Shown here: piece by piece, positions 8,630 to 27,477 of the stretch
Layout of the letters: the number at the start of each line of letters is the position of its first letter
How positions within the stretch are numbered: position 1 is the first letter of the stretch
Source: Nitrospirales bacterium
Lineage (GTDB): Bacteria; Nitrospirota; Nitrospiria; Nitrospirales; UBA8639
Direction of reading: 5' to 3'
Length of the DNA: 64,000 nt
Assembly: GCA_031315865.1 (NCBI GenBank)
Contig: JALDRJ010000002.1
Location: forward strand, 1,772,001-1,836,000
The notes under the pieces: model-generated
Seen by the model: only the letters and a program-made list of their open reading frames with translations
The model's database searches: none
Told to the model about the DNA's origin: nothing
Position numbers and translations under genes: made by a program

Positions 8630-9292
8630 TTATTCCCGAATGGCCTCCGTCCAAGCAATTTTCGGACTGACGTTGACCGACTTTGGCTTCGTGCACTTTT
8701 TCCCACGGTCGCCATAACTGATATTCGACGTTTTAATCGGACAGGTCCCAAAGGCTGTTCCGAACTCTACCACCCCGCTTACCACGGTGAGTGTCGACTG
8801 TCCGTTCTCATCGACAAGGAGGTCAAACTCTGTACCTTTGACCGCAGCCGTCGCGACGGGCGTTTCTATTTCCAAGGGTTTGGGCTCACCTTGTGTGTCA
8901 ACCCAGACTTCCCCATGCTTCAGGCGCAGGACCCGCGTAAATCCTTTGGATTTTTCCCATCGTGACAGAATCAAAAACTCGGTATTCTCATTGAGGGCCA
9001 CCTCGATCCCATTATCGAATTCAATTAATCCTTGGCTGGCGGACTCTGTTCGAATGACGTCGCCTTCAAAAAGCGGTAGCGCACCTTTTCCTTCCAAGCC
9101 CTCCTCGATTCCGTCACTTCGAATGATGGTAAAACCGCCAATCGCATTTTTTGCGATGCCGACTGATTCTGGAGAGGCCAGGGCTACTGGTCCCTGGTAC
9201 AAAACAGACAAGGTGATTATCGTGAGGCATAAGAGTTTGAGGGTATCGCTTGCCCTCCAACGCGTGCAGTGCTGATTATTGTTCGTTTTCAT
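8630..9292 (-). CDS. Exported FecR-domain protein
   Basis: A 220-residue exported protein. The start at 9292 follows GAGGAGCAC and opens a signal peptide with hydrophobic core LLCLTIITLSVLY and likely cleavage after ALA. The FecR domain covers about residues 55-175 (GDVIRTESASQGLIEFDNGI, then GEVWVD, then TPVATAAVKGTEFDLLVDEN). In classical FecR this domain receives a signal from a TonB receptor and controls a sigma factor, but here it is on the outer side with no cytoplasmic part and no sigma gene nearby. It is the last gene of a minus-strand run after the YVTN lipoprotein (46-base gap). Exported FecR proteins like this usually have unknown roles. Confidence 0.88.
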   Translation of the reverse strand: MKTNNNQHCTRWRASDTLKLLCLTIITLSVLYQGPVALASPESVGIAKNAIGGFTIIRSDGIEEGLEGKGALPLFEGDVIRTESASQGLIEFDNGIEVALNENTEFLILSRWEKSKGFTRVLRLKHGEVWVDTQGEPKPLEIETPVATAAVKGTEFDLLVDENGQSTLTVVSGVVEFGTAFGTCPIKTSNISYGDRGKKCTKPKSVNVSPKIAWTEAIRE

Positions 9293-9337
9293 GTGCTCCT
9301 CCTGTATCACGGTCATTTCATCAAGGTTCAAAGCTCG

Positions 9338-10333
9338 TTATCTGGACGCCACGACACGTATGGGTTTTTGGCCAACCGGGATGGTCGATAAGACTTTGTT
9401 GGTGCCAGTATCGATGATCTTCAGATCGTTGGATTTGGTATGCCCCACATAAAGCCGCGTTCCGACAGAATTTGCCCAGATACCGTTGGGACCTTGCCCG
9501 ACATCAATCTGTTCTTTGATTTGCGGTGTGGAGGTATTGGCGCTCAACACGACGACTTTATCGAGTCCGGCTACCGTGACGTAGGCATTTGGACCGGCCG
9601 TGCCTTTAAAGGCAAAGGCGATCTGTTGAGGGGCCGCGCCGACCTCGATCTCATTGGAGATTTCGTTCGTTTGTGGATCGATCGTGTAGATGGAATTGCT
9701 CCCGGTATTGGTTCCCCAGATCTGGCCATCTGGCCCAAGGACCAGAAAGTGGGGATTGGGCCCGACGGGAATACGTTTAATGATCTGATGCGCCATCGTG
9801 TCGATCACATTCACATGCTTGTCTTGTGTGCTGACATAGGCCAACTTGCCGTTACGGGAGAATGTGATACCCATGGGTCCCCCCGGAATCGGGATGGTGC
9901 CGAGGATGCGAAAAATTCCCGTATCGATGATGGAGATCGTGTTGTCGGCGATATTGGCGACCCAGGCCTGCTTGTTGTTATTTGTGAGGGTAACGACATG
10001 AGCGCGATCCCCCGTGAAAATGGACGCAATCGTCTCCATCTTCTCCGTGTCGATGACAGAGACGCGTCCTGAGGCCAAATTGGTCGCCCACAACTGCTTT
10101 CCGTCACGGGTCAGGGAGAGGTCATGCGTGGCATGGTTCAGAGTATCGATCTCGCCCAATGGCTTAAAGGTCGTGCCATCGACGACGCTGACGGAATTTG
10201 AACTTTCATTAGCCACATACACTTTCGTGTCAGGACCTTCCGGTTTAGTGGGAAGCTTGGCGATGCAGCCAGCGAGCAGGCTGGCCGCCAGCATACCTCC
10301 AAGGACTGAGAACAGCGTAGACGCCACCTTCAT
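9338..10333 (-). CDS. YVTN/YncE beta-propeller lipoprotein
   Basis: A 331-residue lipoprotein: SLLAGC places the lipidated Cys at residue 23. The mature part consists of about seven 40-residue YVTN repeats (KVYVANESSNSVSVVDG, QAWVANIADNTISIIDTG, LAYVSTQDKHVNVIDT and others), which fold into a beta-propeller. Such propellers are binding scaffolds; no catalytic residues are visible. It lies between the exported caspase gene (91-base gap) and the FecR gene (45-base gap), all in the same direction, so the three may work together outside the inner membrane. YncE-like proteins have been linked to DNA or metal binding, but nothing here decides that. Confidence 0.9.
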   Translation of the reverse strand: MKVASTLFSVLGGMLAASLLAGCIAKLPTKPEGPDTKVYVANESSNSVSVVDGTTFKPLGEIDTLNHATHDLSLTRDGKQLWATNLASGRVSVIDTEKMETIASIFTGDRAHVVTLTNNNKQAWVANIADNTISIIDTGIFRILGTIPIPGGPMGITFSRNGKLAYVSTQDKHVNVIDTMAHQIIKRIPVGPNPHFLVLGPDGQIWGTNTGSNSIYTIDPQTNEISNEIEVGAAPQQIAFAFKGTAGPNAYVTVAGLDKVVVLSANTSTPQIKEQIDVGQGPNGIWANSVGTRLYVGHTKSNDLKIIDTGTNKVLSTIPVGQKPIRVVASR

Positions 10334-10424: not shown

Positions 10425-13400
10425 TTATTGAACGCGCCCCATGATCAGTTGGCCTTCGACCTCTCCCTTCTTCACTGGGTGTTGATTCTGACCGGTCACG
10501 GAGGGCACTTGTGTGGAGACGTAGGAATAGGCCTCATCGACTGTGATGATGCCATCGGCGTCAAAGTCGGCTTTTCCTTTAAGTCCTTCCAACAGATAAT
10601 ACGTAAAAACGCCATGTCTCAAATCGTCCCGTTCTTCACTAACTTCACTGGCTCGACTGGCCGTCAAGACCACTCGTCCCTTGCCTTCGGCTAACCGAGA
10701 CAGGAAATTGTCCGAGACCACGGCTCGACGCGCTGCGGTGGAAAATGTCCGTCCCGCTGTGGCGCCACTATAGCAGGAATCTGTGATGAAAATGACCCGT
10801 TCTGCGGCAATACGGTCAAAAATGGTCTCGACCTCCCTCATCGGCAGGCCAGTGGTATAGAGGTCTTGCGGGTCAGCGTCATAGGGGATGAGGTATTTTT
10901 CAAGACCATCTCCGTCGGGACTTGCCGAGTCCGTTTCTGGGGCGCCATGCCCGGCGTAGTAAATGATGACGGTATCCTTGGGCCCGGCCTTGCGCTTCAG
11001 CTCGGTTCCCAAGGTTCTCTTAAGATTCACCAGCGTGGCCTGCTCGTTTATGAGCGACGTCAGGTGTTCTGCTGGAATGCCAACATCGTTCATGAGATAC
11101 TCATGAAAGGCTAAGGCATCGTTATCCGCGTACTTGAGGGGGCGGACCTTGTCGTACCTGGAAATTCCGATGACGACAGCCCAGATTTTGCCTTTATCCA
11201 GGATGCGGGTGACGTTGAGGGTTCGGGTAGCTGAGATTTGTTCACCATCAAACGCGGTGATGCTGATCGTATTGGTCCCCTCCCGCAACTGAACAGACTC
11301 CGAAAACTCGTAGGTGGTATTCGTCGCAGTCCGACCCGGCACGACGGCGATTCCACGGCCTTGACGCCTGGCTTGAAGTTCCTGGTTCACTCGTACTTCG
11401 ATGCGTGAAATGCCTTTTTCGCTGGCGGCAGCCCCGATTAATTGAATGCGATCAACTTTCACTTCTTGATTCTCGAATGGAGAAGCCAAGGCGATGGCTG
11501 GTGGCGTTTTGGGTGATGGGACCGTCGTGACTTGAGTCAATTGTTCTTTGAGCTCCTGTAATTCTGTTTGATACTGTCTGAGGGCTCTTTCTGCTTGTTC
11601 TCGCTGCGCATGTTCGGCGTGAAGCTTTTCCTCCATCGTGGAACGTTCATGGTTTTGCGAGGAGTGCAGAGATTCCAATTGAGCACGCAACTGCTTCATC
11701 TCATGTTCTCTGGCCTGTAACGTGGCGGTGGTCTGTTCACGCTCCGCGCGTTCCCGTTCGAGCTCTTCTTGTGTCGATGAGAGCTTTGCGTTCTCCGTGT
11801 TCGCAAGATGCTGGAGCTTTGCCTGCAAGTCGTGCATTTCTTGCTCGCGTCGTTGCAAAGCCTGCTCGATCTCCTCTCGTTGAATTTGCGCTTCTTGCAG
11901 TTGCTCATTCAACGTGATGAATTGAGCCGTTCGCGCGGCCTCTAAGCCTTGAATGATCGGAATCGGCATGCTGCCCTTGGCCATGGATACGGTGACCGAG
12001 GCTTGATTCTTGGAGATCCAGCCGGACTCCGCTTCGGAGAGTTGTACGCGATACCAGTCACCCAACTCTCCTGTTGCAGCCAGGGTTTGATCGTGTTGAA
12101 CTGCGGCGATGACGGAGGAGTCCGCTCCCGCGCCGCTCAGGATCGAAGCCTGTTTCGCAGTGACCGTGATGAGCTTGTTGGTCGCCACGATCTGAAGTGG
12201 CGGCTGTGTATCGACGGCCAGATTCAAGGTGTCGTTCAGGAAAACCTGTTCTGATTTTTCTTGAATGAAGAGCTTGAATTGGAGTTCTGCGCCCGAAAAA
12301 TCTGGCCACACGGTAAAGCTGACTCTGGCGCGTTTGGACGTTTCCCCTTCGAGAGCGCCAAACCGGATCACGCGAGGCCGAATTTTCAGGTGTTGATCAG
12401 CCCCATTATTGATTTCGACCCAGGTGTTCTTCGCGGGGACGGTGCTGACGTTTCGTAGGGTCAACAGAAGATCGACCGCTTCACCTTTTTGAATCCTCCC
12501 ATCTCCATTTCCCACAGACTGGCCACTGCCATCATCGAGAATTTGATAGTTATAGGCTAATCGCGGTTTGGTCGAACCCGTCAGATGAATCACTGCCTGC
12601 AGTGGTGGAGGGGTGAATCCGTTATATTCCTCGAACACAATCTGCATCGGCGCCGTGTCCTGGTCGTGATCTGCTGGAATTTGGACATGCACGACCTCGG
12701 ACTGCTGCTGTCCGGCTTCGATTTTTCCAAAATACAAGACTTGACCGTCGAATATTGGGTTTTCGCTCTGCGTGGTCCCCTTCATGCGATAGACTGGACC
12801 TTTTCCGGTATTCTTGATCGTCACCTGAAGTTCGACCGGATGCCCGGGCTGGGCTTCATGAGGGCGAATCACGAGTTCGGCTTGTGGGCGGGGAGGGGGA
12901 AATGGGGGAGGGCCCACTTCGTTGTCTTTCACCTCGATGGTGTTCTTGGCCTCTGGCGTTCCGCGTTGGACAATGCGCATTGAAGGATGAAATGGCTGAA
13001 GCTGGACGATGCGATCGCGGCCTCCGGAGGCAAGTGATTGACCGTCAGGAGAAAACGCTACTGCCCACACTGGTCCACGATGATTCGTGAATGATCGCAA
13101 TTCCTGACCATTCTTCCAATCCCATACACGGATGCTTCCGTCTTTTGCGGCGGATACGAGAGTAAGCCCATCTGGAGAAAAGGCGAGAGATTGCAGGGCG
13201 TCCGTATGTCCAGTCAAGATTCCTCGTTCGTGGCCAGTCGAGAGGTCCCACAGGCGGATGGTTTGATCGGCTCCCCCGCTGGCGAGAATTTGGCCATTGG
13301 GAGAAATGGAGACGGCTAGAACCGCTCCCCGGTGCCCGGAGAAGGTCTTTTGCTGGCGGCCGCTCGACGGATCCCACAGATGCACCATGGCATCGCTATT

Positions 13401-13955
13401 GCCAGTGGCCAGCAGGTGACCATCCGGGGAAAATGCCATGGAGAATATGATCCCAAACCCACTTTTCATGACTTTTTGCGGATTTTTTGTCTGCCAGTCC
13501 CAAAGATAAATATTTCCTCCATCTCCTCCTGTGGCGAGTGTTTTCCCATCGGGGGAAAACGTTAACGACCGAACACTCCCGAAGCGCGTGCTTATATTCA
13601 CCAGTTCTTTGCCCGTTCCGATCTCCCATAGTCGCCAGGTGCGGTCACGGGCACCGGAAGCTAGGAGCCGGCTATCAGGAGAAAAAGCCAACGCCCGAAC
13701 GGCACCGGTATGACCTTGTAAGATCTTACGTAGACGGCCCGTGCGGGGATCCCAGAGGCGAATCATTTCATCGCCGCTCCCAGAGGCGAGATAGTGTCCG
13801 TTTGAAGAAGTGGCTAATGAGAAAATTTCACCTTGATGGCCCATCAGCGACCGTGTTGGGGGATCGATTTCTGGAGAAGGGGATGCCTGAAGAGAGCACG
13901 GGTTGGCAAGAAGCCAAAGTACAAGACAGATAGTAAATCTTAAATAAAAATACAT
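10425..13955 (-). CDS. Exported WD40-coiled coil-caspase (peptidase C14) protein
   Basis: A 1176-residue multidomain protein with an N-terminal signal peptide (ICLVLWLLANPCSLQAS). In order: seven WD40 repeats (about residues 38-330, with motifs such as LASGSGDEMIRLWDPRTG); two CARDB-like beta domains (about 355-590); an SH3b-like unit (about 595-655, GDWYRVQLSEAESGWI); a long coiled coil (about 680-820); an Ig-like domain (about 830-920); and a C14 caspase domain (about 935-1170). The catalytic dyad is intact: His in IIYYAGHGAP near 998 and Cys in FITDSCYSGA near 1060. An EF-hand-like loop (DFDADGIITVDE) lies near 1133. Caspase-like enzymes cut after Arg/Lys or Asp; most bacterial ones with WD40 repeats lack signal peptides, so export is unusual. 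Confidence 0.92.
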   Translation of the reverse strand: MYFYLRFTICLVLWLLANPCSLQASPSPEIDPPTRSLMGHQGEIFSLATSSNGHYLASGSGDEMIRLWDPRTGRLRKILQGHTGAVRALAFSPDSRLLASGARDRTWRLWEIGTGKELVNISTRFGSVRSLTFSPDGKTLATGGDGGNIYLWDWQTKNPQKVMKSGFGIIFSMAFSPDGHLLATGNSDAMVHLWDPSSGRQQKTFSGHRGAVLAVSISPNGQILASGGADQTIRLWDLSTGHERGILTGHTDALQSLAFSPDGLTLVSAAKDGSIRVWDWKNGQELRSFTNHRGPVWAVAFSPDGQSLASGGRDRIVQLQPFHPSMRIVQRGTPEAKNTIEVKDNEVGPPPFPPPRPQAELVIRPHEAQPGHPVELQVTIKNTGKGPVYRMKGTTQSENPIFDGQVLYFGKIEAGQQQSEVVHVQIPADHDQDTAPMQIVFEEYNGFTPPPLQAVIHLTGSTKPRLAYNYQILDDGSGQSVGNGDGRIQKGEAVDLLLTLRNVSTVPAKNTWVEINNGADQHLKIRPRVIRFGALEGETSKRARVSFTVWPDFSGAELQFKLFIQEKSEQVFLNDTLNLAVDTQPPLQIVATNKLITVTAKQASILSGAGADSSVIAAVQHDQTLAATGELGDWYRVQLSEAESGWISKNQASVTVSMAKGSMPIPIIQGLEAARTAQFITLNEQLQEAQIQREEIEQALQRREQEMHDLQAKLQHLANTENAKLSSTQEELERERAEREQTTATLQAREHEMKQLRAQLESLHSSQNHERSTMEEKLHAEHAQREQAERALRQYQTELQELKEQLTQVTTVPSPKTPPAIALASPFENQEVKVDRIQLIGAAASEKGISRIEVRVNQELQARRQGRGIAVVPGRTATNTTYEFSESVQLREGTNTISITAFDGEQISATRTLNVTRILDKGKIWAVVIGISRYDKVRPLKYADNDALAFHEYLMNDVGIPAEHLTSLINEQATLVNLKRTLGTELKRKAGPKDTVIIYYAGHGAPETDSASPDGDGLEKYLIPYDADPQDLYTTGLPMREVETIFDRIAAERVIFITDSCYSGATAGRTFSTAARRAVVSDNFLSRLAEGKGRVVLTASRASEVSEERDDLRHGVFTYYLLEGLKGKADFDADGIITVDEAYSYVSTQVPSVTGQNQHPVKKGEVEGQLIMGRVQ

Positions 13956-14449
13956 ATTAACTTTTGAGCCTGCATTCTACGATCAAGGTTTCTCTTTAAA
14001 ATATACCGCGGAGATTTGATCATAATCATCTCCCTGTCCTTGTATTGGTCGCATAAAACGAGCGAGGGGTTCGATGTAAAGTTTGCCTATTCTCTCAATG
14101 CTTGTCCTCTACATAGGCTTTCCTATCGATAGCCAGAGAAAATCATATTGAATGGCCACCCAACCCGGAAAGAGCGAAACCAATTCTTGATGACAGCGGT
14201 TGACGGGCAGTTACTGGCGCAAGAGGCCCTAAAAGGTTGTCACCGGGAAAACTTTGAACCCTAGGCTCCTTCTTTTCGGACTATTCGAAAATGCTATGTT
14301 CAACATCAATGTAACATGGAAGAAAGTGTGGGAGCACTTTCGTGAAAAAGATTGAAGATGCAACTGAGAAATATGAATCGAGAATTCTCTAAAGGGGACA
14401 TTCTGTTTTTCTGTCGACTGTCAGCTCGCCGGTACGCTATGGTACAGCC
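13956..14449. other. Gene-free interval before the RAYT gene
   Basis: No ORF is supported in these 494 bases. The part next to 13955 must hold the promoter of the caspase gene. At 14394-14405 the sequence GGGGACATTCTG precedes the transposase gene; a similar AGGGACATTCTG occurs near 58354. This may be the kind of conserved sequence that accompanies REP-associated transposases, but two short matches do not prove it. Confidence 0.4.
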
Positions 14450-15097
14450 ATGCCCCGTACCGCTCGAGCTTCCGTTGGAGGCATTTGTTACCACGTCTTG
14501 AACCGCGGCAACGCCCTGGCCGATGTGTTTCATGATGTGGAAGATTATCAGGCATTCCTCAAACTCTTACAGCGCAGCGTCGAAGAGCGTGGCATGCGGA
14601 TTGTGGCCTTCTGTCTGATGCCGAATCATTTTCATGCACTGGTCTGGCCCAGAGTAGACAGGGAGCTCAGTCAATGGATGCAATGGTTGCTGACGACTCA
14701 TGTCCGGCGCTATCACCGGATGTATCAGTCCAGTGGCCATGTATGGCAAGGGCGATTTAAGGCGTTTCCTGTCCAGCAGGATGAGCATGTTCTGATGGTG
14801 CGTCGGTATATCGAACAGAATCCCGTACGGTCTCGTCTCGTGACAAAGGCGGAAGAGTGGCGGTGGTCGAGTATTTCAGGGAGGGAACCCTGGCTCCATT
14901 CCGGTCCGGTCGAACGCTCTGCAGGGTGGAAAAAATTGGTCAATACGCCCCTCACGGGTGATGAAGTGGACACGATACGTCGAAGTGTTTACAGGGGAGC
15001 ACCGTATGGTCAGGAATCATGGGTTCGGCGGACCGTGAAACGTTTAGGATTAGAAGCGAGCGTGAACCCTCGTGGGCGGCCACGGAAGCTGTCATAA
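14450..15097 (+). CDS. REP-associated tyrosine transposase (RAYT)
   Basis: A 215-residue Y1-type transposase of the IS200/IS605-related RAYT group. The HUH metal site is in FCLMPNHFHALVW and the catalytic Tyr lies in the helix RRYIEQNPVR. Its opening RxxxxGGICYHVLNRGNA is also characteristic. It has a C-terminal extension (GLEASVNPRGRPRKLS). RAYTs nick single-stranded DNA at REP hairpins and are usually kept as single domesticated copies rather than as true insertion sequences. I see no clear terminal hairpin pair here, so mobility is doubtful. It ends 6 bases inside a convergent small gene. Confidence 0.92.
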   Translation: MPRTARASVGGICYHVLNRGNALADVFHDVEDYQAFLKLLQRSVEERGMRIVAFCLMPNHFHALVWPRVDRELSQWMQWLLTTHVRRYHRMYQSSGHVWQGRFKAFPVQQDEHVLMVRRYIEQNPVRSRLVTKAEEWRWSSISGREPWLHSGPVERSAGWKKLVNTPLTGDEVDTIRRSVYRGAPYGQESWVRRTVKRLGLEASVNPRGRPRKLS

Positions 15098-15747: not shown

Positions 15748-16527
15748 CTACCAGACGTTTCCCGCTCCAGGAGTATAGGACGAGGAGATAACGCTGTTCG
15801 TGACGACCGAGTCTGACTGCACGACTCCGGTAAATTTTGACATTCCTGAATTGACCTTCACCATCCCGCCCGAGACTTCCACCATGCTGGCATTGAGCGT
15901 GATTTTAGCCGAACTGTTGAGCGTAATACCGGTTTGGCCAACTTGCATGGCCGATTCAAGCTTTGAGAGGCGGCTTTGGAGCGCATGCGCAATCTTCTGG
16001 AGGTCTTGTACCTGTTTCTCTAACTGTTGGATGGTGTTTTCGGGTGAATGAGCCTGTGGGTTCTTCTTTGTTTGGCGACGCAACACCGTTTTGGGTTTTG
16101 TCGGAGGTGTGACCTGCTTCGCTTGTTTCACCGCTCGGGATCGAATTTCACTCGTGGAGCCTTCTGCTTCCAAGCCATGGCCATCAGGCAGCAGTACTTG
16201 AATGATGATGGCATGACCTTTCTCCGGGAGAAGATTGACGATCGGCCTACTCACGTGCTCGTCATGATGAGTCGGCGTAGCCTTTAGTAAGAAAGTCTGT
16301 TTGCGTTCACCGGGTATCAAGCGAAGCCAAGGATCCGCAGCTTCCACGTGATATGTTCCTGGTTTAATGACAATATCGCTACCATTCGCCAGAGTGAAAT
16401 GCGCGGGACTTTCAAGCGTGAGAAGGAGAGTCGAGGCGTTCATCTCACTTGCTTTGAGAGGATCAACGATAAGGAACAAGAGGAGGAGCGCCAGCGTTGT
16501 TGTAGAACGGTGTGGATCGATGAACAT
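15748..16527 (-). CDS. Paralog family protein A: shared domain plus spike-like tail
   Basis: A 259-residue exported protein; the start at 16527 has GGAG 5 bases upstream. After the signal peptide (TLALLLLFLIVDPLKA), residues 30-130 are the domain shared with four genes upstream: a hydrophobic strand pair, PGTYHVEAADPWLRLIP, and the closing signature LLPDGHGLEAEGSTSEIRSR. A basic linker and a coiled coil (IQQLEKQVQDLQKIAHALQS) follow. The C-terminal 60 residues (GITLNSSAKITLNASMVEVS, ending YTPGAGNVW) look like the beta-prism tail of VgrG/gp5-type spike proteins. It is the last gene of the run, 47 bases after protein B. No known function; the trimer-forming tail suggests an elongated extracytoplasmic assembly. 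Confidence 0.8.
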   Translation of the reverse strand: MFIDPHRSTTTLALLLLFLIVDPLKASEMNASTLLLTLESPAHFTLANGSDIVIKPGTYHVEAADPWLRLIPGERKQTFLLKATPTHHDEHVSRPIVNLLPEKGHAIIIQVLLPDGHGLEAEGSTSEIRSRAVKQAKQVTPPTKPKTVLRRQTKKNPQAHSPENTIQQLEKQVQDLQKIAHALQSRLSKLESAMQVGQTGITLNSSAKITLNASMVEVSGGMVKVNSGMSKFTGVVQSDSVVTNSVISSSYTPGAGNVW

Positions 16528-16574
16528 GTTTTCTCCTTTTGTGGCCCAAACGGTGCTGCGTTAACGGTATTGGA

Positions 16575-17561
16575 CTAACGGTTCCATTCGTCGCACACAA
16601 AGCTCACACTATCGATGTATGTTCCGTATTTCCCGCGCAACGCTTTTCCGACTTTATTGCCCGGGCAAAAAAAGTCATCGCTTCTCGTCCCCCCGAAAGG
16701 AGTCCCAGGCGCACCGGCGAACGCGCATTCTGTATTGCAACTCTTGACGTCTTTAGGAGATTTGAAATTTCTGGGTCGTTTCTTGGCGGCGTCCCATCTC
16801 GGACAGAACATGGTGATCCCATTCACAAACATTCCCGATCGTGCGTGAAACCCACCGACAACTCGACCGTCCCCACATCTATCGATGCGTCCCGTGCCGC
16901 CGGATCCTCCAACCGGTTTTCGTGTATAGTCTTCTCCCAGCGAACCATCGTGATTGACCTCTTGGCAAATGAGTCCAAGCGCGTCAATCCATGAGCCACT
17001 TTTCGTCGTGACTCCCACCATCACGCCATTCGGGCCACAATCAAGGTTGTACCTTTTCTTTCCGCCACCTCCCCCGAGCAGCGGCGTTTCGAACTCAGTA
17101 GAGCGGGTGCTTTGCCGGGAAGCCAGAAGAGCCTGCAATTGTTGACGGCTCAGTTTTGATCCGGCTCGTGATCGAATGCCGCTATAGGAGCCAGTCGCCT
17201 CAAAGCTTTTTCCGTCCGGTAGTAGCAGGACAAGATGGTGGGAGTCAGGCTCGATACCCGTAACCGACAACGCCAATGGAGTCTTTAATGACTCTTGATG
17301 TCTGCCCACATGGGCTTCAAGCAGGTACGCATCCATGGCTAGACCATGGCTGGGAATAATCCGGATCCAGTCTTGGGCAGGCTCCACGACATACTCTCCG
17401 GCACCGATCCTGAGATCGCTGCCGTCTGGCGTCAGGAAGTGAATCGGGACTTCAAGTTCGATCGTGTTGAGGGCGTTGGTCGACTCGGCGTGGGATTTTA
17501 GCGCGATTCCCAGGATGATCAACGATAAAACAATTCCGATAATCCATTTCAAATTTTTCAT
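16575..17561 (-). CDS. Paralog family protein B: shared domain plus triple Cys repeat
   Basis: A 328-residue exported protein. I use the start at 17561 (MKNLKWIIGIVLSLIILGIA), which opens directly into a signal peptide after GGGG; an ATG at 17591 adds ten polar residues. The shared domain (about residues 28-140) ends in LLLPDGKSFEATGSYSGIRS. The C-terminal half has three related units near residues 172, 225 and 298, each a Gly-rich strand with Cys then aromatic-Ile/Val-Asp or Asn (CGPNGVMVGVTTKSGSWIDA, RCGDGRVVGGFHARSG, FFCPGNKVGKALRGKYGTYI). The pattern recalls jacalin-like lectin strands, but the even Cys count suggests disulfides. Export and Gly-rich repeats point to ligand binding; the ligand is unknown. 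Confidence 0.78.
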   Translation of the reverse strand: MKNLKWIIGIVLSLIILGIALKSHAESTNALNTIELEVPIHFLTPDGSDLRIGAGEYVVEPAQDWIRIIPSHGLAMDAYLLEAHVGRHQESLKTPLALSVTGIEPDSHHLVLLLPDGKSFEATGSYSGIRSRAGSKLSRQQLQALLASRQSTRSTEFETPLLGGGGGKKRYNLDCGPNGVMVGVTTKSGSWIDALGLICQEVNHDGSLGEDYTRKPVGGSGGTGRIDRCGDGRVVGGFHARSGMFVNGITMFCPRWDAAKKRPRNFKSPKDVKSCNTECAFAGAPGTPFGGTRSDDFFCPGNKVGKALRGKYGTYIDSVSFVCDEWNR

Positions 17562-17598
17562 AGTATGTACCCCATCCGTTTTGTTGATCACGTATCAG

Positions 17599-19641
17599 TT
17601 ATCGGGCTGCGGCTTCGGCTAATAACAAGACACTCCGGTTATATCGTTCCAGGGCTTTCCTCGTGTCTTCTGTGTGCGTACTCGCGAGAATGATGATTTG
17701 CTGCTTCGATGGCAAGTATCGAAGGATCGCTGTCAATGGGCCGGCATGTTGTTGAATGGTTGCGTAGGGGCGTCCGCTTTTGAGCGCTTTTTTCCCTTCG
17801 TCGATGACCTTCCCATAGGCATACAGCAGTCCGCCCTTTACGCTGCCAACGATAATATTGTTGATCGTCAATTTCCAGATGACATCGGGAGTGACTTTGG
17901 CCACACCCGAGATGATGCCTCCCACCTCGGGGACGAGGCCGGCTGCACTTTGAACGACCGTGCCGACGGTCTGTTCGCCAAAGTCCAGAACCTCCACTGC
18001 GGATCGGATCAAAAAACTCCCACCACCCGGTAATTCACTGTTCAGATAGTTTTTTCCTACCACGCGTAGTATTTCCATCCCAATGTCGATGTACAGCGTT
18101 TCCGTCCATGGACTATTTGGGTCAAGAGCGGTTCTTACTCCACTCAAGGCTTGCGCTCGTTGTGCGGTATTGTCCAGCGATCTCGAGAGTCGTTCGACGT
18201 GAGAGGCTGCGGCGTGCAAGGTCTGTGGGTTCAAGAGCTGATCGGCCAGCACGGCATTTTTAATGTCGATGATATCTCCTAGTCCTGGAATGACTTCGCC
18301 AAGTAAGGCTTTAGCATCGTCACCGCCAAATCCTCGAGAGACAATCTGCCCTGGCGAATCAGGGCTATCGCTTGGTCCATATTCTTGAGCAATGCCTCGT
18401 GAGCGTACCGTTGTTTGGGCGATGTCACGGGGTGTCAGCGATGTCGCAGCCGACAAGATTTTGCCGATTTGCTTGCTGATGCCGCCATACAGGACAGGGG
18501 CCACTTGGTTGTCAAAGATTCGTTTGGCCTGTGTCTTGGCTGTCTGCTGTACCTGTCCGGACATCTTGTTCACTGTCTTGAGATGAGGGCTTGCAAACTG
18601 CATCAGACATCGTCCAGCTGGTCCCTTTTGCGCTAATTTTTCCAACGAGCGAAATGCCATGCTGACGACTTGCTCTCCTTGTGGTGCGGAACGGGAGGGA
18701 TTCTTGATGAACTGGAGTTGTTCGCCCATGATTTCACTAAAGTTCTGTTCCCATTGCTGCATGAGGTCTTGAAAAAGCTTGTTGGCAAATCCGGCAGGAT
18801 TGTTCACGAGCTGTTGAGCCATCTGCCCGACATTGCCGGTCGCTGACCCTGAGGCCTGCGCGAGGCATCCAAATAGCGGTTCGAGTTTTAACTGTCTGAC
18901 CGCTTGCAACGTTTGAATTTCACTCTGTAGCTTGGCGAGCATGGGGTTGTCTTGGAGTTGATTGACGCCGTCCTGCACTCCACTTCTGACCGCGCCAGCC
19001 ACCTGTCGACCGGCTTGCTCAACCTGCCGCTTGGCCTGCAGGGCGGCGTTCCTGGTGTTTTCTACACTTTTTTTCGCTTGGGACACAGCCTTCTGTGTTT
19101 GCTGCTTGATTTGTTTCGTCGTTTTTTGTGCGGTGCTCTTTCCCTTCGAGACCGCTGTTTCCGCCGTAGATCTGGCCTTTTGGTATGCGCGGTTCGCCTG
19201 TTTCTTGACATTGTTAACGGCATGATCAAACATGCCCCTCTGTCGAATGCCACTATAGGTTCCGGTGGCTTCCAGGCTCTTTCCATCAGGAAGCAGGAGG
19301 AGAATATGATGACGGTCGTGTTGTCCATCTTCGGTGTCGGGAACAGACAAAGCTAACGCCTCAGAAAGCTCGAGCTCATGGGTGCCTTTCTTCGCCTCGA
19401 TAAGGAGTGCATTCTGTGGCTCGTCCGGGATGAGTCGAATCCATTCTTGTGCCGCTTCGACGGAAAAGGTTGCAGAGTCCGTGACCAGCGGGCTTCCATC
19501 CGGCGCGATAAAGTACACGGGCTTGTCCAGCTCAATCGTGATTAGAGGATTCGAGAGAGTGGCATGGGCTTGGACGGTAGGTCCAAACCACACACACAAT
19601 GTAAGTGTGGCCACAATGGTTAGCCGGGAGAGTTTCATCAT
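17599..19641 (-). CDS. Paralog family protein C: shared domain plus long helical region
   Basis: A 680-residue exported protein starting after GGAGG at 19641 (MMKLSRLTIVATLTLCVWF). The shared domain covers about residues 28-145 and ends LLLPDGKSLEATGTYSGIRQ. Next comes a Lys/Ala/Gln-rich helical stretch (about 150-225, TAQKTTKQIKQQTQKAVSQA) like a coiled stalk, then a long helical body with glycine-rich hydrophobic segments (LLGEVIPGLGDIIDI, SAAGLVPEVGGIISGVAKV). Such segments occur in membrane-active proteins, but no toxin family is recognised. Only two Cys lie in the mature part. It begins a tight three-gene set, C-B-A, with gaps of 37 and 47 bases. Confidence 0.75.
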   Translation of the reverse strand: MMKLSRLTIVATLTLCVWFGPTVQAHATLSNPLITIELDKPVYFIAPDGSPLVTDSATFSVEAAQEWIRLIPDEPQNALLIEAKKGTHELELSEALALSVPDTEDGQHDRHHILLLLPDGKSLEATGTYSGIRQRGMFDHAVNNVKKQANRAYQKARSTAETAVSKGKSTAQKTTKQIKQQTQKAVSQAKKSVENTRNAALQAKRQVEQAGRQVAGAVRSGVQDGVNQLQDNPMLAKLQSEIQTLQAVRQLKLEPLFGCLAQASGSATGNVGQMAQQLVNNPAGFANKLFQDLMQQWEQNFSEIMGEQLQFIKNPSRSAPQGEQVVSMAFRSLEKLAQKGPAGRCLMQFASPHLKTVNKMSGQVQQTAKTQAKRIFDNQVAPVLYGGISKQIGKILSAATSLTPRDIAQTTVRSRGIAQEYGPSDSPDSPGQIVSRGFGGDDAKALLGEVIPGLGDIIDIKNAVLADQLLNPQTLHAAASHVERLSRSLDNTAQRAQALSGVRTALDPNSPWTETLYIDIGMEILRVVGKNYLNSELPGGGSFLIRSAVEVLDFGEQTVGTVVQSAAGLVPEVGGIISGVAKVTPDVIWKLTINNIIVGSVKGGLLYAYGKVIDEGKKALKSGRPYATIQQHAGPLTAILRYLPSKQQIIILASTHTEDTRKALERYNRSVLLLAEAAAR

Positions 19642-19806
19642 GAGGGTTCCTCCTTGCCGTGAACGTATTCGTGTCTATTGCTATCAGTCAGTCGAATGCC
19701 TGGTGAGAAAGGTTCACGTATACAGGTAAAGTGTCGGAAGAATCGACCGATTGGTGATGTCCTCACCTTTTAAACGGAGTCATACGTGGCAGGTGAGTCG
19801 CGATCG

Positions 19807-21264
19807 TCACGGGTAAAATTTTTTTCTGTCTGTTTCTTCGTTCTTGCGAAAAAAACGAGAGCTTTGCGGGCAAGGGGCATCGGCTTCGACCCAGGGGTCG
19901 ATTTTGCTGTACCACAGCAAAGGTTTGTTGGGAAATGGAACCGTCAACTTCTTCCCTGTAGGCGTGGTTCCGTCACTGACGGCCCAAAGTATTCTCGGAT
20001 CTTGATGAAAGTGATCGTATAACCGTTTTGGGTCAGGTGGGGTTTCAATTTCATTGTCTTTATTCGTAAAAGGGCCAGTGACTTTTTCACAGATGAGATG
20101 TGCGCTCCAGCCTTTCCAATTCAATCCTTGAGTGGCGAGTGGTGAAACCCACCGGTTTTTTATCTCCGGCGAATTATGACAATCCATGCAGAATGTGGGG
20201 TTCTGTGGTCTGGCTTCTTCTTCAAATTGGTACGGGAATTGTTCGACGCCCAGGCGGTATTGGTGCATTTCCACGATGGAATCGTGGTCGATGAGCGCGT
20301 GGCAAGTGGTGCAGCGATCATGAGAAAAAATGGGATACAGGACCGAATCGAAATAACTCATGGATCGGGCGTAAATTTTCGTATCCGAGGATTCCCACGA
20401 TTTGTTCCCTTTCGTGACCACCACTTTGACAGTTTTAGGCCAGGTTTGCGCACGCAGATCATTGAGCTCCACGCGTGTGAGGAGGGTTCCTCGTTTTCCG
20501 AATTTCAACCGGGAAATCGGTATCTTTTCCCCATTGAGCGTCAACGTGATGCAACATTGCTTTTTCTTGACGAGATTTTGAAAGTCTTCGTTGTGCCGGG
20601 GGATAAACGACGGATGTAGGGCACCCTTCTCCCAATATCCTCCCCAGGTCAATGTCAGGATTCCGGAGTTAAGTGTATCGCTCACTGGGAGTTGCCACGT
20701 GGTATGGTGCTTATCCCCCTGATAGGTTTTATGAGAATCGGGATATTCGAGGGAAATGCTCGACAAGGTTAGATGCGGAACGCTGGCTTGAGCTTTTTGC
20801 TTCTCGTCGATGTGAAAGAGCAGTCGTTCGTTCGGGAGAGGTGGATGATCAGCTGTTCGAGTATGAACGCCGGTCAGCCCTCCCCGTGCTTCCCAACGCC
20901 GACCATTCGGCAGGAGTAAGGTCAGGACAAATTCGTCTTTGCTCTCAGAAAATACCAGTGCGAGCGGCGTTTTCGTCAGACTATCCTGCTCAGTGATGTT
21001 CGCTTCTATCAGGATTGATTCGTCCCCCAATCCTTCTTGAGCGATTAACCGAAGGCCAAATTTTTCACCATTCAGTCCATAGGCCCCGGGCAAAACCGTG
21101 ACCTTTTCTCCAGCGGGCATGAAAAAGTGCAGCGTTTGATCGATTTCTACGGTGGCAGGCTTGTGGTCCGTCGATTCTGTTTTTGATGGAGTGGAGCATC
21201 CGGATATTATAAAAATTATGGTGAGTGAACCCATCAAGAATGCGAGCCACCGGAACGGAATCAT
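19807..21264 (-). CDS. Paralog family protein D: lipoprotein with two c-type heme motifs
   Basis: A 485-residue lipoprotein; GAGGAGGG precedes the ATG and IISGC gives lipidated Cys23. The shared domain (about residues 35-150) is the most diverged copy, but keeps LLLPNGRRWEARGGLTGVHT. The middle is beta-rich. Two CxxCH heme-attachment motifs follow: DRCTTCHALIDHD near residue 318 and FCMDCHNSPEIKNRW near 356, so the mature protein should carry two covalent hemes outside the inner membrane. Electron transfer or redox sensing is implied, with no catalytic family recognised. Gaps of about 160 bases on both sides mean it may have its own promoter. Confidence 0.82.
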   Translation of the reverse strand: MIPFRWLAFLMGSLTIIFIISGCSTPSKTESTDHKPATVEIDQTLHFFMPAGEKVTVLPGAYGLNGEKFGLRLIAQEGLGDESILIEANITEQDSLTKTPLALVFSESKDEFVLTLLLPNGRRWEARGGLTGVHTRTADHPPLPNERLLFHIDEKQKAQASVPHLTLSSISLEYPDSHKTYQGDKHHTTWQLPVSDTLNSGILTLTWGGYWEKGALHPSFIPRHNEDFQNLVKKKQCCITLTLNGEKIPISRLKFGKRGTLLTRVELNDLRAQTWPKTVKVVVTKGNKSWESSDTKIYARSMSYFDSVLYPIFSHDRCTTCHALIDHDSIVEMHQYRLGVEQFPYQFEEEARPQNPTFCMDCHNSPEIKNRWVSPLATQGLNWKGWSAHLICEKVTGPFTNKDNEIETPPDPKRLYDHFHQDPRILWAVSDGTTPTGKKLTVPFPNKPLLWYSKIDPWVEADAPCPQSSRFFRKNEETDRKKFYP

Positions 21265-21420
21265 GTAAGCCCTCCTCTGGCTTTTTGCCTAAATTACCCA
21301 AAATGGGTTCATCTGGAGCCTTTAGTGATCATAACTGAGAGAAACTCCTAGCGTAAAATATCATTCTTCGTCCTCATATGATGAAGAAGGCTAGATTGTC
21401 GAATGAGAGTGTGTAGGACG

Positions 21421-21591
21421 CTATTCTTGTCCGGTAAACATCATGGGTTGTGTCGTGACATCGACGGGAGGAAATCCCGGCCCGCCCGTAAACTGCATAG
21501 ACTGTGTCGTTTGATCAACCGATTGAAACGCCGCGGCTAGCCCCACACTTATCGCGAGCAGGAATAGAATCATTGGAAGACTTTTAATCAT
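21421..21591 (-). CDS. 56-residue secreted repeat peptide
   Basis: A small exported protein (MIKSLPMILFLLAISVGLAA) whose mature part is only about 33 residues. It holds two copies of one motif, VDQTTQSMQFTG and VDVTTQPMMFTG, separated by GPGFPP. Its ATG shares an A with the TGA of the gene upstream (TGATG), so translation is coupled to protein E. The ORF can be read from 21735, but that part lies inside protein E. No family is recognised. The doubled motif suggests a structural or binding peptide working with the neighbouring exported proteins. Confidence 0.65.
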   Translation of the reverse strand: MIKSLPMILFLLAISVGLAAAFQSVDQTTQSMQFTGGPGFPPVDVTTQPMMFTGQE

Positions 21592-22475
21592 CAGTTCACG
21601 CTCCCCTGTGCATGGATGCGAAATGGCGTTCCGTCGGCGGAGACCAGCCACGCTGGTTTTTGGTTCCCCAGCGGTGTGCCATGCTTTCCTGGCTGTCGGA
21701 ATCCGATCCCGGGTTTGTGCAGTAAAATACCGCAATAATATTGATCGGCATCCTCAGGCTCTTTGCCTTGACTCGCGTTAAACATGACGACGACGGTTCC
21801 TTGATATTGCCGATTGGCGATATTGGCGACCGATTCCCCTTCCCCAATTCTTCGGTCGTATTTTGTCGCATCGTTGCCACTATGCGTCCAACATTGCAGC
21901 TTCAATTTATCGATGTCTGGGTCCAAGTGACTGAGTTGTATGGGGACTCGCAGGGTAAAGTGGGCCTTGATGGTCACGCGCGCTCGGCTCGTTAAGCGTG
22001 CGCGGTCAAATTGTTGTTTGACCGTGGCGCGCGACGCTCCTGTTCGTTTCTTGGTCACGTGCGTGGCTCTTGATCGGATGCCGCTGTATGACCCTGTGGC
22101 TTCAAGGGCTTTGCCATCAGGGAGCAATAACATGAGCACGTGGAGATCGTCTTGTTCTGAGAATGAAAGAGGCGTCGGGACGGTGACCGTCTCTTCGTGA
22201 GTCGTGGGATGGGCTGTAATGATCAGCGGGTGATCCGTCGTCTCTCCCGTGAGTTGAAGGTACCCGTGCTCTGAACTCACTTCGTACGTACCCGGCGGGA
22301 CTGGTATGTCTTCACCCGTTTGACTCACGAAATAGGTTGTGCGATCCAAGGTGATTGCTGTCGGGAGTGGATTTGTTTCTTCGTTTAGAGAACGGGACGT
22401 GCAACTCGTTAAGATTCCTGTCCATCCAAGGATTCCGGCGAGTCCGAATGCAAGCATGGTATGAGATGTCGGCAT
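21591..22475 (-). CDS. Paralog family protein E: lipoprotein with shared domain
   Basis: A 294-residue lipoprotein (GILTSC, Cys25), with an AGGAG site upstream. The shared domain occupies about residues 37-140 and ends LLLPDGKALEATGSYSGIRS, the clearest form of the signature. A basic linker follows (KKRTGASRATVKQQFDRARL), then a beta-rich C-terminal domain (HFTLRVPIQLSHLDPDIDKL, VVVMFNASQG, DQYYCGILL) with two Cys that may pair. That last domain is not recognised. It starts 16 bases after the spike-like gene's stop, and its stop overlaps the start of the 56-residue peptide, so the three genes form one unit. Confidence 0.78.
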   Translation of the reverse strand: MPTSHTMLAFGLAGILGWTGILTSCTSRSLNEETNPLPTAITLDRTTYFVSQTGEDIPVPPGTYEVSSEHGYLQLTGETTDHPLIITAHPTTHEETVTVPTPLSFSEQDDLHVLMLLLPDGKALEATGSYSGIRSRATHVTKKRTGASRATVKQQFDRARLTSRARVTIKAHFTLRVPIQLSHLDPDIDKLKLQCWTHSGNDATKYDRRIGEGESVANIANRQYQGTVVVMFNASQGKEPEDADQYYCGILLHKPGIGFRQPGKHGTPLGNQKPAWLVSADGTPFRIHAQGSVN

Positions 22476-25656: not shown

Positions 25657-27477
25657 ATGAGCACATTTGATAGTACGAAGACCCCGTTGCCGGACATTAT
25701 TCGGGAAATTACAGACGGGGATTTGCAGTTGCCAGATTTTCAGCGAGGCTGGGTTTGGGATGACCATCATGTACGATCGCTACTTGTTAGCATTGCGCGT
25801 TCTTTTCCTGTTGGTGCGGTCATGCTTTTGGAGACAGGAGGTGATGTGCGGTTCCAGGTTCGCCCTGTAGAGAATGTTGGTTTTGCTGTAAAGAATCCAG
25901 AACCTGAACGCTTAATCCTTGATGGGCAGCAGCGTCTCACCTCCCTCACGCAGGTCCTGGCTTTGGATAAACCAGTAAAGACCTTTGATGAGAAGGGTAA
26001 GCCCATTGAGCGCTACTATTATATTAGCATTAATGAGGCGCTTGTTGATGACCTTCTTGATAATGCCTTTATTGCGCTGGAAAAAGACAAAAAACTCAAA
26101 ACCAATTTTGGACGCGATGTGGTCCTTGATTTATCGACTAGGCAAAAAGAATGCGAAGAGTTTTATTTTCCCTGCAACCAAATTCTGAATTCGGATTCCT
26201 GGGAAGAGAGTCTACAGGAATTCGCGCCGGAGAAGTTTAGTGACTATATGGGGTTTCGCAAGAAAACCTTAAATGCTTTTCGCAGTTATCAGCTTCCCGT
26301 CATCGCCCTTGGAAAAACCACCAGCAAAGAGGCCGTATGCCTTGTGTTCGAAAAGGTGAATACGGGCGGTGTTCCGTTATCGATTTTCGAATTGGTAACC
26401 GCGAGTTTTGCTGCCGATAATTTCAATTTACGTGATGACTGGTTCGGCAGTACCCGGAGAAAGGTTCAAGGCCGCTCGAAGCGTATCAAGATCGAACCTA
26501 TCTTGGATTCAATCGAGCCAACGGACTTTCTTCAGGCCATAAGCCTTCTTCGCACCTACGAGAAGCGAAAAGCCGATATTGAAGCGGGGAAAACCGGCAA
26601 GGCAGTGTCAGCCGTTAGCGCCAAGCGTGTAGCCGTGCTCGCGCTCGCCCTTGATGACTATCGGCAGTGGGCCGATGAGGTTGAAAAAGGCTTTATGCTT
26701 GCAGCAAAATTTTTACGCAAAGAGTGTTTTTTCACTTCGCGCGATCTGCCGTACCGAACGCAGATCGTTCCGCTTGCCGCCGTGTTGACGGTTTTGCGTG
26801 AGCGTTGGCTGGAGCCGCGCATCTACGAGAAACTCTGCCGTTGGTTCTGGTGCGGGGTTTTGGGTGAATTATACGGCGGTGCAGTCGAAACGCGCATCGC
26901 CAATGATTTAGAAGAGCTTCTCGCGTGGATCGAGGGTGATGCCGAGGAGCCCCGGACGATTTACGAAGCGTCATTTCAACCCAGTCGGCTTTATACGCTT
27001 CGTTCCCGTCTCAGTGCAGCCTATAAGGGTCTGAATACGCTTGTCCTGCGTAAAGGGGCGCAGGATTTCTTCTGGAAGGCGACAGTTCAAGAACTTGACC
27101 ATGAGGAAGTTGCCCTCGACATCCATCATATTTTTCCAAAGGCATGGTGTGAGTCGCGCGGAATCAAACCCGCCGTCTTCAATGCGATTATCAACAAAAC
27201 TCCGATTTCCTATAAGGCGAACAGGATGATTGGCGGTAAACCGCCATCATCTTATCTGTCTTCGATTCAGACGCATAAGCAGGTAAGGCTTTCAGATGAG
27301 GCGATGGATGGGATTCTTGAATCCCATTTCATAATGCCCTCTGCCCTCAGACAAGATGATTTTGAGGCATTTTTCGAGACTCGTAAAAAAAATCTGCTCC
27401 ACATTGTCGAGCAGGCTATGGGCAAGGAGGCCGAGCCCGGAATCCAGGAAGAAGTCTGGGATGATACTGATATGTAG
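25657..27477 (+). CDS. GmrSD-type DUF262/HNH protein (putative type IV restriction enzyme)
   Basis: A 606-residue single-chain protein. The N-terminal DUF262 (ParB/Srx-like) domain shows LQLPDFQRGWVWDDHHVRSL near residue 23 and the nucleotide-site motif LILDGQQRLTSLTQVL near 85. The C-terminal DUF1524-type His-Me nuclease has LDIHHIFPKAWCE near 486 and a following NKTPISYKANRMIGG. This is the GmrS-GmrD fusion layout, where enzymes cut glucosylated or otherwise modified phage DNA using NTP hydrolysis, so an anti-phage role is likely. AAGGA precedes the ATG at 25657. It sits alone, next to the decayed ArsR partner gene. DUF262 proteins are diverse, so the DNA modification recognised is unknown. 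Confidence 0.88.
   Translation: MSTFDSTKTPLPDIIREITDGDLQLPDFQRGWVWDDHHVRSLLVSIARSFPVGAVMLLETGGDVRFQVRPVENVGFAVKNPEPERLILDGQQRLTSLTQVLALDKPVKTFDEKGKPIERYYYISINEALVDDLLDNAFIALEKDKKLKTNFGRDVVLDLSTRQKECEEFYFPCNQILNSDSWEESLQEFAPEKFSDYMGFRKKTLNAFRSYQLPVIALGKTTSKEAVCLVFEKVNTGGVPLSIFELVTASFAADNFNLRDDWFGSTRRKVQGRSKRIKIEPILDSIEPTDFLQAISLLRTYEKRKADIEAGKTGKAVSAVSAKRVAVLALALDDYRQWADEVEKGFMLAAKFLRKECFFTSRDLPYRTQIVPLAAVLTVLRERWLEPRIYEKLCRWFWCGVLGELYGGAVETRIANDLEELLAWIEGDAEEPRTIYEASFQPSRLYTLRSRLSAAYKGLNTLVLRKGAQDFFWKATVQELDHEEVALDIHHIFPKAWCESRGIKPAVFNAIINKTPISYKANRMIGGKPPSSYLSSIQTHKQVRLSDEAMDGILESHFIMPSALRQDDFEAFFETRKKNLLHIVEQAMGKEAEPGIQEEVWDDTDM

Follow-up and report, generated by a model that had tools for sequence, protein, structure and literature searches.

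What does a caspase-fold protease do when its gene encodes an export leader? Bacterial caspases are usually regarded as machinery of cell death or defence and, to our knowledge, the natural substrates of its members are largely unknown. The window analyzed here, a stretch of 64,000 nucleotides from a Nitrospirales genome, carries such a gene, and its genome context names a candidate substrate family together with an exact predicted cut site. In our preferred model, the protein would be a secreted protease with Arg specificity that processes exported proteins, releasing varied C-terminal cargo from an N-terminal domain that they share. We assign a probability of about 0.5 to this model as a whole, in which the cleavage step is inferred.

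Domain architecture of the caspase

The gene is a single open reading frame with no in-frame start further upstream. An assembly or frameshift artefact was ruled out because the frame is intact and the orthologues are full-length. At the level of sequence, the exported caspase of the original prediction is thereby confirmed as a real, conserved gene of Nitrospirota. Its parts are as follows (the arrow marks a cut).

10425..13955, minus strand: exported WD40-caspase gene, 1176 aa; intact, with orthologues 57-73% identical along their full length
13884..13955, minus strand: Sec-type export leader, residues 1-24; hydrophobic, with a LQA↓S cleavage-like site, kept in orthologues despite divergence
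12996..13850, minus strand: seven WD40 repeats, residues 36-320; seven Pfam WD40 stretches, E 2e-75; number varies among relatives (see below)
12198..12890, minus strand: two CARDB-like domains, residues 356-586; overlapping a TIGR03900 match
11991..12188, minus strand: SH3b-like domain, residues 590-655; SH3_3, E 9e-6, slightly under the curated cut-off
11520..11948, minus strand: coiled coil, residues 670-812; from sequence, with weak SMC-type matches
11211..11510, minus strand: Ig-like Big_7 domain, residues 816-915; Pfam Big_7, above cut-off
10428..11198, minus strand: C14 caspase domain, residues 920-1176; PF00656, dyad H1003 and C1061, predicted S1 acids D946, D1059 and E1104
10533..10568, minus strand: EF-hand-like loop DFDADGIITVDE, residues 1130-1141; positions 1, 3 and 12 invariant in 18/18 sequences

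Most of the layout first proposed is borne out, including the seven WD40 repeats, the coiled coil, the EF-hand-like loop and the Ig-like part (27.7 bits against a cut-off of 24.1). The SH3b assignment is borderline; SH3_3 does match, at 26.2 bits against a cut-off of 27. The CARDB-like domains had been left unnamed.

The N-terminus, MYFYLRFTICLVLWLLANPCSLQA↓SPS, reads as a typical Sec leader. It is only 24% identical to that of the nearest orthologue, its hydrophobicity is kept, and every full-length orthologue retains a leader, so the proposed export is supported to the extent that sequence allows. The accompanying statement that WD40 caspases are mostly cytoplasmic was too strong. A 2012 survey found an N-terminal helix, maybe a signal peptide, in many metacaspases, and WD40 was the commonest accessory domain (10.9%; PMC3501461).

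Catalytic domain and predicted specificity

The caspase domain matches PF00656 with 63.1 bits (E 4e-17; cut-off 21.4). The predicted His/Cys dyad is intact, with H1003 in YYAGHG and C1061 in DSCYSG, and the suggested check for its conservation revealed no loss: both residues are invariant in 18/18 aligned sequences, which comprise orthologues and distant relatives. In MALT1, a P1 Arg is met by the S1 acids D365, D462 and E500 (PMC4357240). The counterparts of these three residues, D946, D1059 and E1104, are likewise invariant in 18/18. When aligned to yeast metacaspase, D946 and D1059 fall on the aspartates of NDA and DSC, while E1104 was matched to MALT1 E500 only by its position. Metacaspase-4 (Z 21.6) and MALT1 (Z 20.6) are the nearest matches to the predicted fold. 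As regards the orthocaspase layout of a p20 domain lacking p10, about 100 residues follow the catalytic Cys and the fold match covers the whole caspase domain. Taken together, the sequence and the predicted fold support an exported, dyad-intact caspase-fold protease. It is very probable that the protein is an active, exported protease of the Arg type; given the predicted acidity of its S1 pocket, Asp substrates are unlikely.

An inactive caspase scaffold, or a gene decaying beside a transposase, would be suggested by a REP-type transposase gene directly upstream (14450-15097) and by the weak ribosome-binding site. We consider this highly improbable, since the caspase domain is 89% identical to that of the orthologue, compared to 24% for the leader, the dyad and S1 residues are invariant, and the reading frame contains no frameshifts. 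A dN/dS comparison of two genomes (G000 and G001) gave no ratio for most regions because synonymous sites were saturated.

Distribution among relatives and the question of calcium

Relatives of the caspase were found in Nitrospirota, Rokubacteria and one Deltaproteobacterium, and relatives without WD40 repeats occur in Nitrospina and Planctomycetota, where lipoprotein-type N-termini take their place. All full-length relatives from Nitrospirota, Rokubacteria and Deltaproteobacteria have seven repeats except one (G024/L050), which has two. The coiled coil is missing from the Nitrospira and Rokubacteria relatives (L052-L059). Because of the two-repeat orthologue and the WD40-less relatives, the propeller is not essential for the caspase family.

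These comparisons bear on the original prediction of a calcium-switched envelope protease whose WD40 propeller recognises targets. The EF-hand-like loop and a GNGDG loop are conserved, most relatives keep a seven-bladed propeller, and eukaryotic metacaspases are calcium dependent (PMC5756287). However, the propeller is reduced or absent in the relatives just described, several orthologues have S or N at position 6 of the EF-hand-like loop, and prokaryotic orthocaspases activate without calcium (PMC5756287). The one pointer to calcium control is the conserved EF-hand-like loop in the sequence. As an explanation of the locus we regard this model as improbable, yet it is compatible with a processing protease and does not exclude it.

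Operon of the caspase

The caspase is the first gene of an operon that is also present in the Rokubacteria and Deltaproteobacterium relatives. It is followed by two further genes.

9338..10333, minus strand: YncE/YVTN-type beta-propeller lipoprotein with lipobox LLAGC (TIGR02276, YNCE); adjoins the caspase in orthologous loci
8630..9331, minus strand: FecR-domain exported protein (PF04773, E 3e-17); third gene at most orthologous loci

A role as a defence or cell-death effector, which many bacterial caspases have, was considered in view of a weak PADLOC caspase match (6.5e-18) and a weak match to NF047832 (EACC1-associated caspase). The latter reaches 109.2 bits against a cut-off of 140, the caspase is predicted to be exported, and its operon adds a propeller lipoprotein and a FecR protein but no defence genes. 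With weak matches only and defence neighbours absent, this reading was rejected as very unlikely.

A shared N-terminal beta domain ending in an invariant Arg

C14 genes of Nitrospirota cluster with genes for exported proteins that have a common, unnamed N-terminal beta domain. Five are found in the window upstream of the caspase.

15748..16527, minus strand: predicted substrate, exported, with the shared beta domain (domain model); site SEIRSR↓A at 16132-16152
16575..17591, minus strand: predicted substrate (domain model and AlphaFold model); site SGIRSR↓A at 17163-17183
17599..19641, minus strand: predicted substrate (domain model); site SGIRQR↓G at 19234-19254
19807..21264, minus strand: predicted substrate (domain model), a lipoprotein with CxxCH motifs; site TGVHTR↓T at 20854-20874
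21591..22475, minus strand: predicted substrate (domain model), a lipoprotein; site SGIRSR↓A at 22065-22085

Neither Pfam nor NCBIfam has a family that covers the domain, a PDB sequence search gave no match, and our literature search returned nothing on it or on exported Nitrospira caspases. By sequence, it would represent a previously unnamed N-terminal domain family. A known fold could not be assigned (best Foldseek E 0.012, best VIA-align Z 4.0); lipocalin-like barrels are among the VIA-align rows. Copies number 1 to 16 per genome. A hydrophobic leader is present in 93/94 domain proteins and a lipobox in 30/94; the baseline in the same neighbourhoods is 215/379.

At its end the domain has a linker whose consensus is [IV]-x-[SP]-R-[GA]. 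Its Arg is invariant in 80/80 copies that reach it (91/101 overall) and is the sole invariant column in those 80, where the flanks are I/V at P4 in 69, S/P at P2 in 65 and G/A at P1' in 62. Conservation falls immediately past P1'. The strict motif occurs at the domain end in 43/94 domain proteins, compared to about 0.5 per 1000 aa elsewhere. In the AlphaFold model of the 16575..17591 domain (mean pLDDT 90), the motif is a coil after the last strand. The consensus matches the S/P-R↓G/A published for MALT1 (PMC6237847), a likeness noticed after the fact. In addition, MALT1 is bound by Z-VRPR-FMK, a compound made with plant metacaspases in mind (PMC6207715). The window caspase itself contains no [LIVMF]x[SPAT]R[GAST] site, and three of four orthologues lack even the stricter form, [LIVMF]x[SP]R[GA]. 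Auto-processing was therefore rejected, as cis-cleavage at the linker motif is unsupported.

Linkage of the caspase and the beta domain

The beta domain was found in 14/14 sampled genomes with the caspase versus 5/381 without it. In total, 30/42 domain clusters have a C14 gene within 20 kb where 1.9 were expected; these statistics ignore phylogeny. When the operon caspases are left out, 22/42 clusters are still near a C14 gene. Genes for secreted proteins may also cluster for reasons other than protease-substrate pairing. Three genomes of the same genus (G002-G004) lack the operon caspase, and in each the 19807 gene has an orthologue that has lost the motif; other C14 genes are present there, and the loss is probably a single evolutionary event.

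Alternatively, an exported caspase with activity on Arg/Lys substrates could have its natural target elsewhere, for example in envelope proteins, foreign proteins or the products of its own operon. In that case the beta-domain family would be only a neighbour, and its Arg a structural residue or sorting signal. No copy of the domain was detectable in the genomes of the Rokubacteria, Deltaproteobacteria, Nitrospina and Planctomycetota relatives, the first two of which bear the operon, and therefore the domain cannot be the sole or original substrate. Furthermore, two caspase-bearing genomes (G024 and G160) hold only a site-less copy, and one orthologous set (G000 1871484, G001, G011 and G024) is also site-less. 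The linker is modelled with fairly high confidence (about 81), which could indicate a structural Arg. Against this alternative, the strong linkage extends to unrelated C14 types (the 22/42 clusters), and the Arg lies past the last beta strand, with flanks like those of a protease site and an immediate drop in conservation. On balance we consider it unlikely, though less so than calcium control.

Proposed role and comparison with known systems

Our current hypothesis is that the caspase is an exported Arg-specific cysteine protease of the metacaspase/paracaspase type that would act extracytoplasmically, either in the periplasm or on the cell surface, with the propeller lipoprotein and FecR protein of its operon working alongside. 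Its job would most likely be limited proteolysis of the exported proteins encoded around it, in which the beta domain comes straight after the signal peptide and is followed by an exposed [IV]-x-[SP]-R linker. A cut after the linker Arg would separate the N-terminal domain, which would stay lipid-anchored in about a third of cases, from varied C-terminal cargo with adhesin-like, lectin-like, enzyme and cytochrome-like parts. For the cell, such cleavage would presumably mean maturation, and the caspase may thus be a maturation enzyme of a secreted protein set rather than a cell-death or defence protein. Other exported caspases that share a genome with it probably target this family too. That several such proteases form a dedicated extracytoplasmic maturation system of Nitrospirota, cutting the family at [IV]-x-[SP]-R↓[GA], is plausible but put forward tentatively. 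If true, an exported caspase-fold protease would have a housekeeping role in the maturation of secreted proteins, and a new N-terminal domain family would be defined in nitrifiers and their relatives.

The nearest known proteins are the metacaspases and orthocaspases (MEROPS C14B), with which the window caspase shares the metacaspase-4-like fold, the HC dyad, the acidic S1 positions, a predicted basic P1 and WD40, a common accessory domain in bacteria (PMC3501461). It differs in its predicted export, the CARDB/SH3b/Ig stalk, the operon and the candidate dedicated substrates. To MALT1 it is linked by fold, by an Ig domain beside the caspase, by the S1 acids and by the neighbouring linker. Close sequence kinship was undetected, however, with MALT1 absent among matches at E up to 1. 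In addition, the window caspase is bacterial and predicted to be exported, Pfam scans revealed no death domain, and its arrangement of WD40, CARDB, SH3b and an N-terminal Ig is not that of MALT1. The model, if true, would have the Arg-directed preference of metacaspases and MALT1 operating in bacteria, as a trans-acting counterpart of their processing with substrates named by the genome.

PorU of type IX secretion, as PMC4560394 and PMC8545088 describe its CTD cleavage step, resembles the model in idea only: an exported clan CD protease trims a shared domain off many surface proteins. PorU belongs to C25, not C14, and removes a C-terminal domain at the surface. Caspase-like processing peptidases of polymorphic toxins (PMC3482391) are likewise exported and of caspase fold, and they have been proposed to free the C-terminal parts of secreted proteins, but they act in cis within the toxin, whereas here the protease has a gene of its own, apart from those of the cargo; among the beta-domain cargo, no gene was identified as encoding a toxin or immunity protein. 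Lastly, TIGR03900, the MXAN_5808 family of exported S41 peptidases, matches residues 366-655 of the caspase protein, with a whole-protein E of 3.9e-61. At 207 bits against a curated cut-off of 661, it is the middle module alone that matches, with no S41 catalytic domain; the CARDB/SH3b-like module is common to both, while the catalytic domains are unrelated. Within the CARDB-like region, a DDGSGQSVGNGDG loop at residues 474-486 is mostly invariant among five orthologues.

Architecture and conservation of the WD40-caspase

The caspase operon and its upstream neighborhood consist of the following features.

10425-13955 (-): WD40-caspase, 1176 aa
9338-10333: YncE-like propeller lipoprotein
8630-9331: FecR protein
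13937-14029 (-): small ORF of ~30 codons with a good ribosome-binding site, overlapping the caspase start in another frame
14450-15097: REP-type Y1 transposase separating the caspase from the beta-domain genes; the corresponding position in G001/L043, a compared locus, has none listed
15748-22475 (-): five exported proteins sharing an N-terminal domain of ~100 residues (beta domain)

The caspase ORF is intact, with no in-frame start farther upstream, and the small ORF may be translationally coupled to it. The original observation of a caspase with WD40, SH3b, coiled-coil, and Ig-like parts and a His/Cys dyad is confirmed, with SH3b borderline.

Pfam matches of the window caspase (all but WD40 searched after removing the WD40 part)
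WD40: seven stretches, E 2e-75
Peptidase_C14: 63 bits, cut-off 21.4
Big_7: 27.7 bits, cut-off 24.1
SH3_3: slightly below cut-off

TIGR03900, the model of a myxobacterial exported S41 peptidase, matches residues 366-655, and the match marks out two CARDB-like domains overlooked in the first reading. This CARDB/SH3b-like middle module (12198-12890; L065-L083 among the compared loci) is common to the S41 peptidases and the caspase, and thus one module has been joined to two unrelated proteases. Judged by eye, the N-terminus reads as a Sec-type leader; identity to the nearest orthologue is 24% in the leader, where hydrophobic character is kept, and 89% in the caspase domain.

Related genomes hold full-length orthologues with 57-73% identity. 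A scan of named genomes gave 42 loci, ∼20 of which encode either the same protein (Nitrospirales, Nitrospira, Rokubacteria, and one Deltaproteobacterium) or a WD40-less version (Nitrospina, a Planctomycetota MAG, and an unclassified bacterium). Seven WD40 repeats are the rule, with two in the G024 orthologue (L050 7902-10868), and the coiled coil is absent from the Nitrospira and Rokubacteria relatives. An alignment of 18 caspase parts shows no variation at H1003, C1061, D946, D1059, or E1104, nor at positions 1, 3, and 12 of the EF-hand-like loop. The propeller lipoprotein gene comes next after the caspase, and a FecR gene is third in most loci; among 395 Nitrospirota genomes, the propeller gene occurs in all 14 that carry the caspase and in three others. 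At L096 7237-8998 (G053), the propeller and FecR genes have no adjoining caspase.

Protease type and predicted specificity

Yeast-type metacaspases are the best sequence matches (E 1e-9). The AlphaFold model, which covers residues 813-1176 at a mean pLDDT of 79 with poorly modeled activation loops, best matches Arabidopsis metacaspase-4 (Z 21.6, 222 residues, rmsd 3.4), followed by MALT1 (Z 20.6, 194 residues, rmsd 2.5) and closely by legumain and caspases. MALT1 binds the P1 Arg through D365, D462, and E500 (PMC4357240). D1059, like MALT1 D462, lies two residues ahead of the catalytic Cys; D946 pairs with the metacaspase NDA aspartate in the sequence alignment; and E1104 is assigned to E500 by position alone. 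These S1 acid counterparts lead us to expect a basic residue at P1 rather than Asp. The earlier interpretation is partly supported, namely as regards an exported caspase-fold protease with an intact dyad.

The beta domain and its linker

The beta domain has no Pfam or NCBIfam match. Model searches of the fetched regions gave 101 copies, and in the 80 reaching the domain end, a restriction that favors Arg invariance, the boundary Arg is the only invariant column. Its flanks carry I/V at P4 in 69, S/P at P2 in 65, and G/A at P1' in 62, and conservation falls immediately beyond P1'. Counting all 101, 91 copies have the Arg, 89 recognized by pattern and two by eye. In the AlphaFold model (mean pLDDT 90), the motif is a coil between the last strand and a helix.

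A hydrophobic leader is found in 93 of 94 beta-domain proteins, against a baseline of 215/379 in the same neighborhoods, and a lipobox in 30. The C-termini are varied, including PAN, FG-GAP, beta-helix, collagen, tachylectin, amidase, phosphatase/nuclease-fold, GDSL lipase, and cytochrome c7 among others, and most types are seen in one to few members. Truncated or frameshifted ORFs in G011 (L037 13764-14144 and L092 2015-2398) suggest turnover within the family.

Evidence for and against a cut site

The strict linker pattern occurs at the domain end in 43/94 proteins, compared to ∼0.5 per 1000 aa for the remaining ORFs of these regions. It equals the MALT1 cleavage consensus, S/P-R|G/A (PMC6237847), a likeness noticed only after the motif was seen. 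The VRPR peptide, designed for plant metacaspases, also binds MALT1 (PMC6207715).

The domain occurs in 14/14 caspase genomes versus 5/381 others, and 30 of 42 domain clusters in 20 genomes have a C14 gene no more than 20 kb away versus 1.9 expected (22 versus 1.6 without the operon caspases), although the genomes are related and these probabilities are thus not independent. Of the five genomes with the domain and no operon caspase, three (G058, G336, and G355) carry other exported-looking caspases within 2 to 8 kb of domain genes. The remaining two are G361, which is fragmented, and G003, from which the site is lost. In G002, G003, and G004, which are of the same genus and lack the operon caspase, a GTQGSEHFRAAQ-type sequence replaces SGVHSRA in the orthologue of the 19807 gene; their other C14 genes are retained. 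Taken together, we predict that the linker is a cut site for a metacaspase/MALT1-type protease, which is worth testing.

Pulling the other way, G024 and G160 carry the caspase and a sole domain copy without the Arg site. In addition, the domain was not found in the Rokubacteria, Deltaproteobacteria, Nitrospina, and Planctomycetota genomes carrying caspase relatives, and the caspase must therefore have, or have had, other substrates.

Relation to known caspases

In a 2012 survey of prokaryotic metacaspases, WD40 was the most frequent accessory domain, many of the proteins had an N-terminal helix that may be a signal peptide, and Nitrospirae showed a high density; the survey also speculated on extracellular roles (PMC3501461). 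The exported architecture by itself belongs to a known type of protein. In polymorphic toxins, caspase-like domains free toxin parts in cis (PMC3482391). Our literature search found no description of the caspase operon, the beta domain, or the linker site. What sets the window caspase apart is the linked candidate substrate family with its predicted metacaspase/MALT1-type site, and this prediction merits experiment.

At a second locus (L086 13681-20000; G000:C2:1898681-1905000), an ECF-sigma-like and anti-sigma-like gene pair is divergent from another exported caspase. This second type is ∼770-800 aa long and has the same beta-domain proteins nearby; L089/L090, L091, L094, and L100 are similar. 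Within the window, 25657-27477 encodes a DUF262/DUF1524-like (GmrSD-type) protein, as judged by eye.
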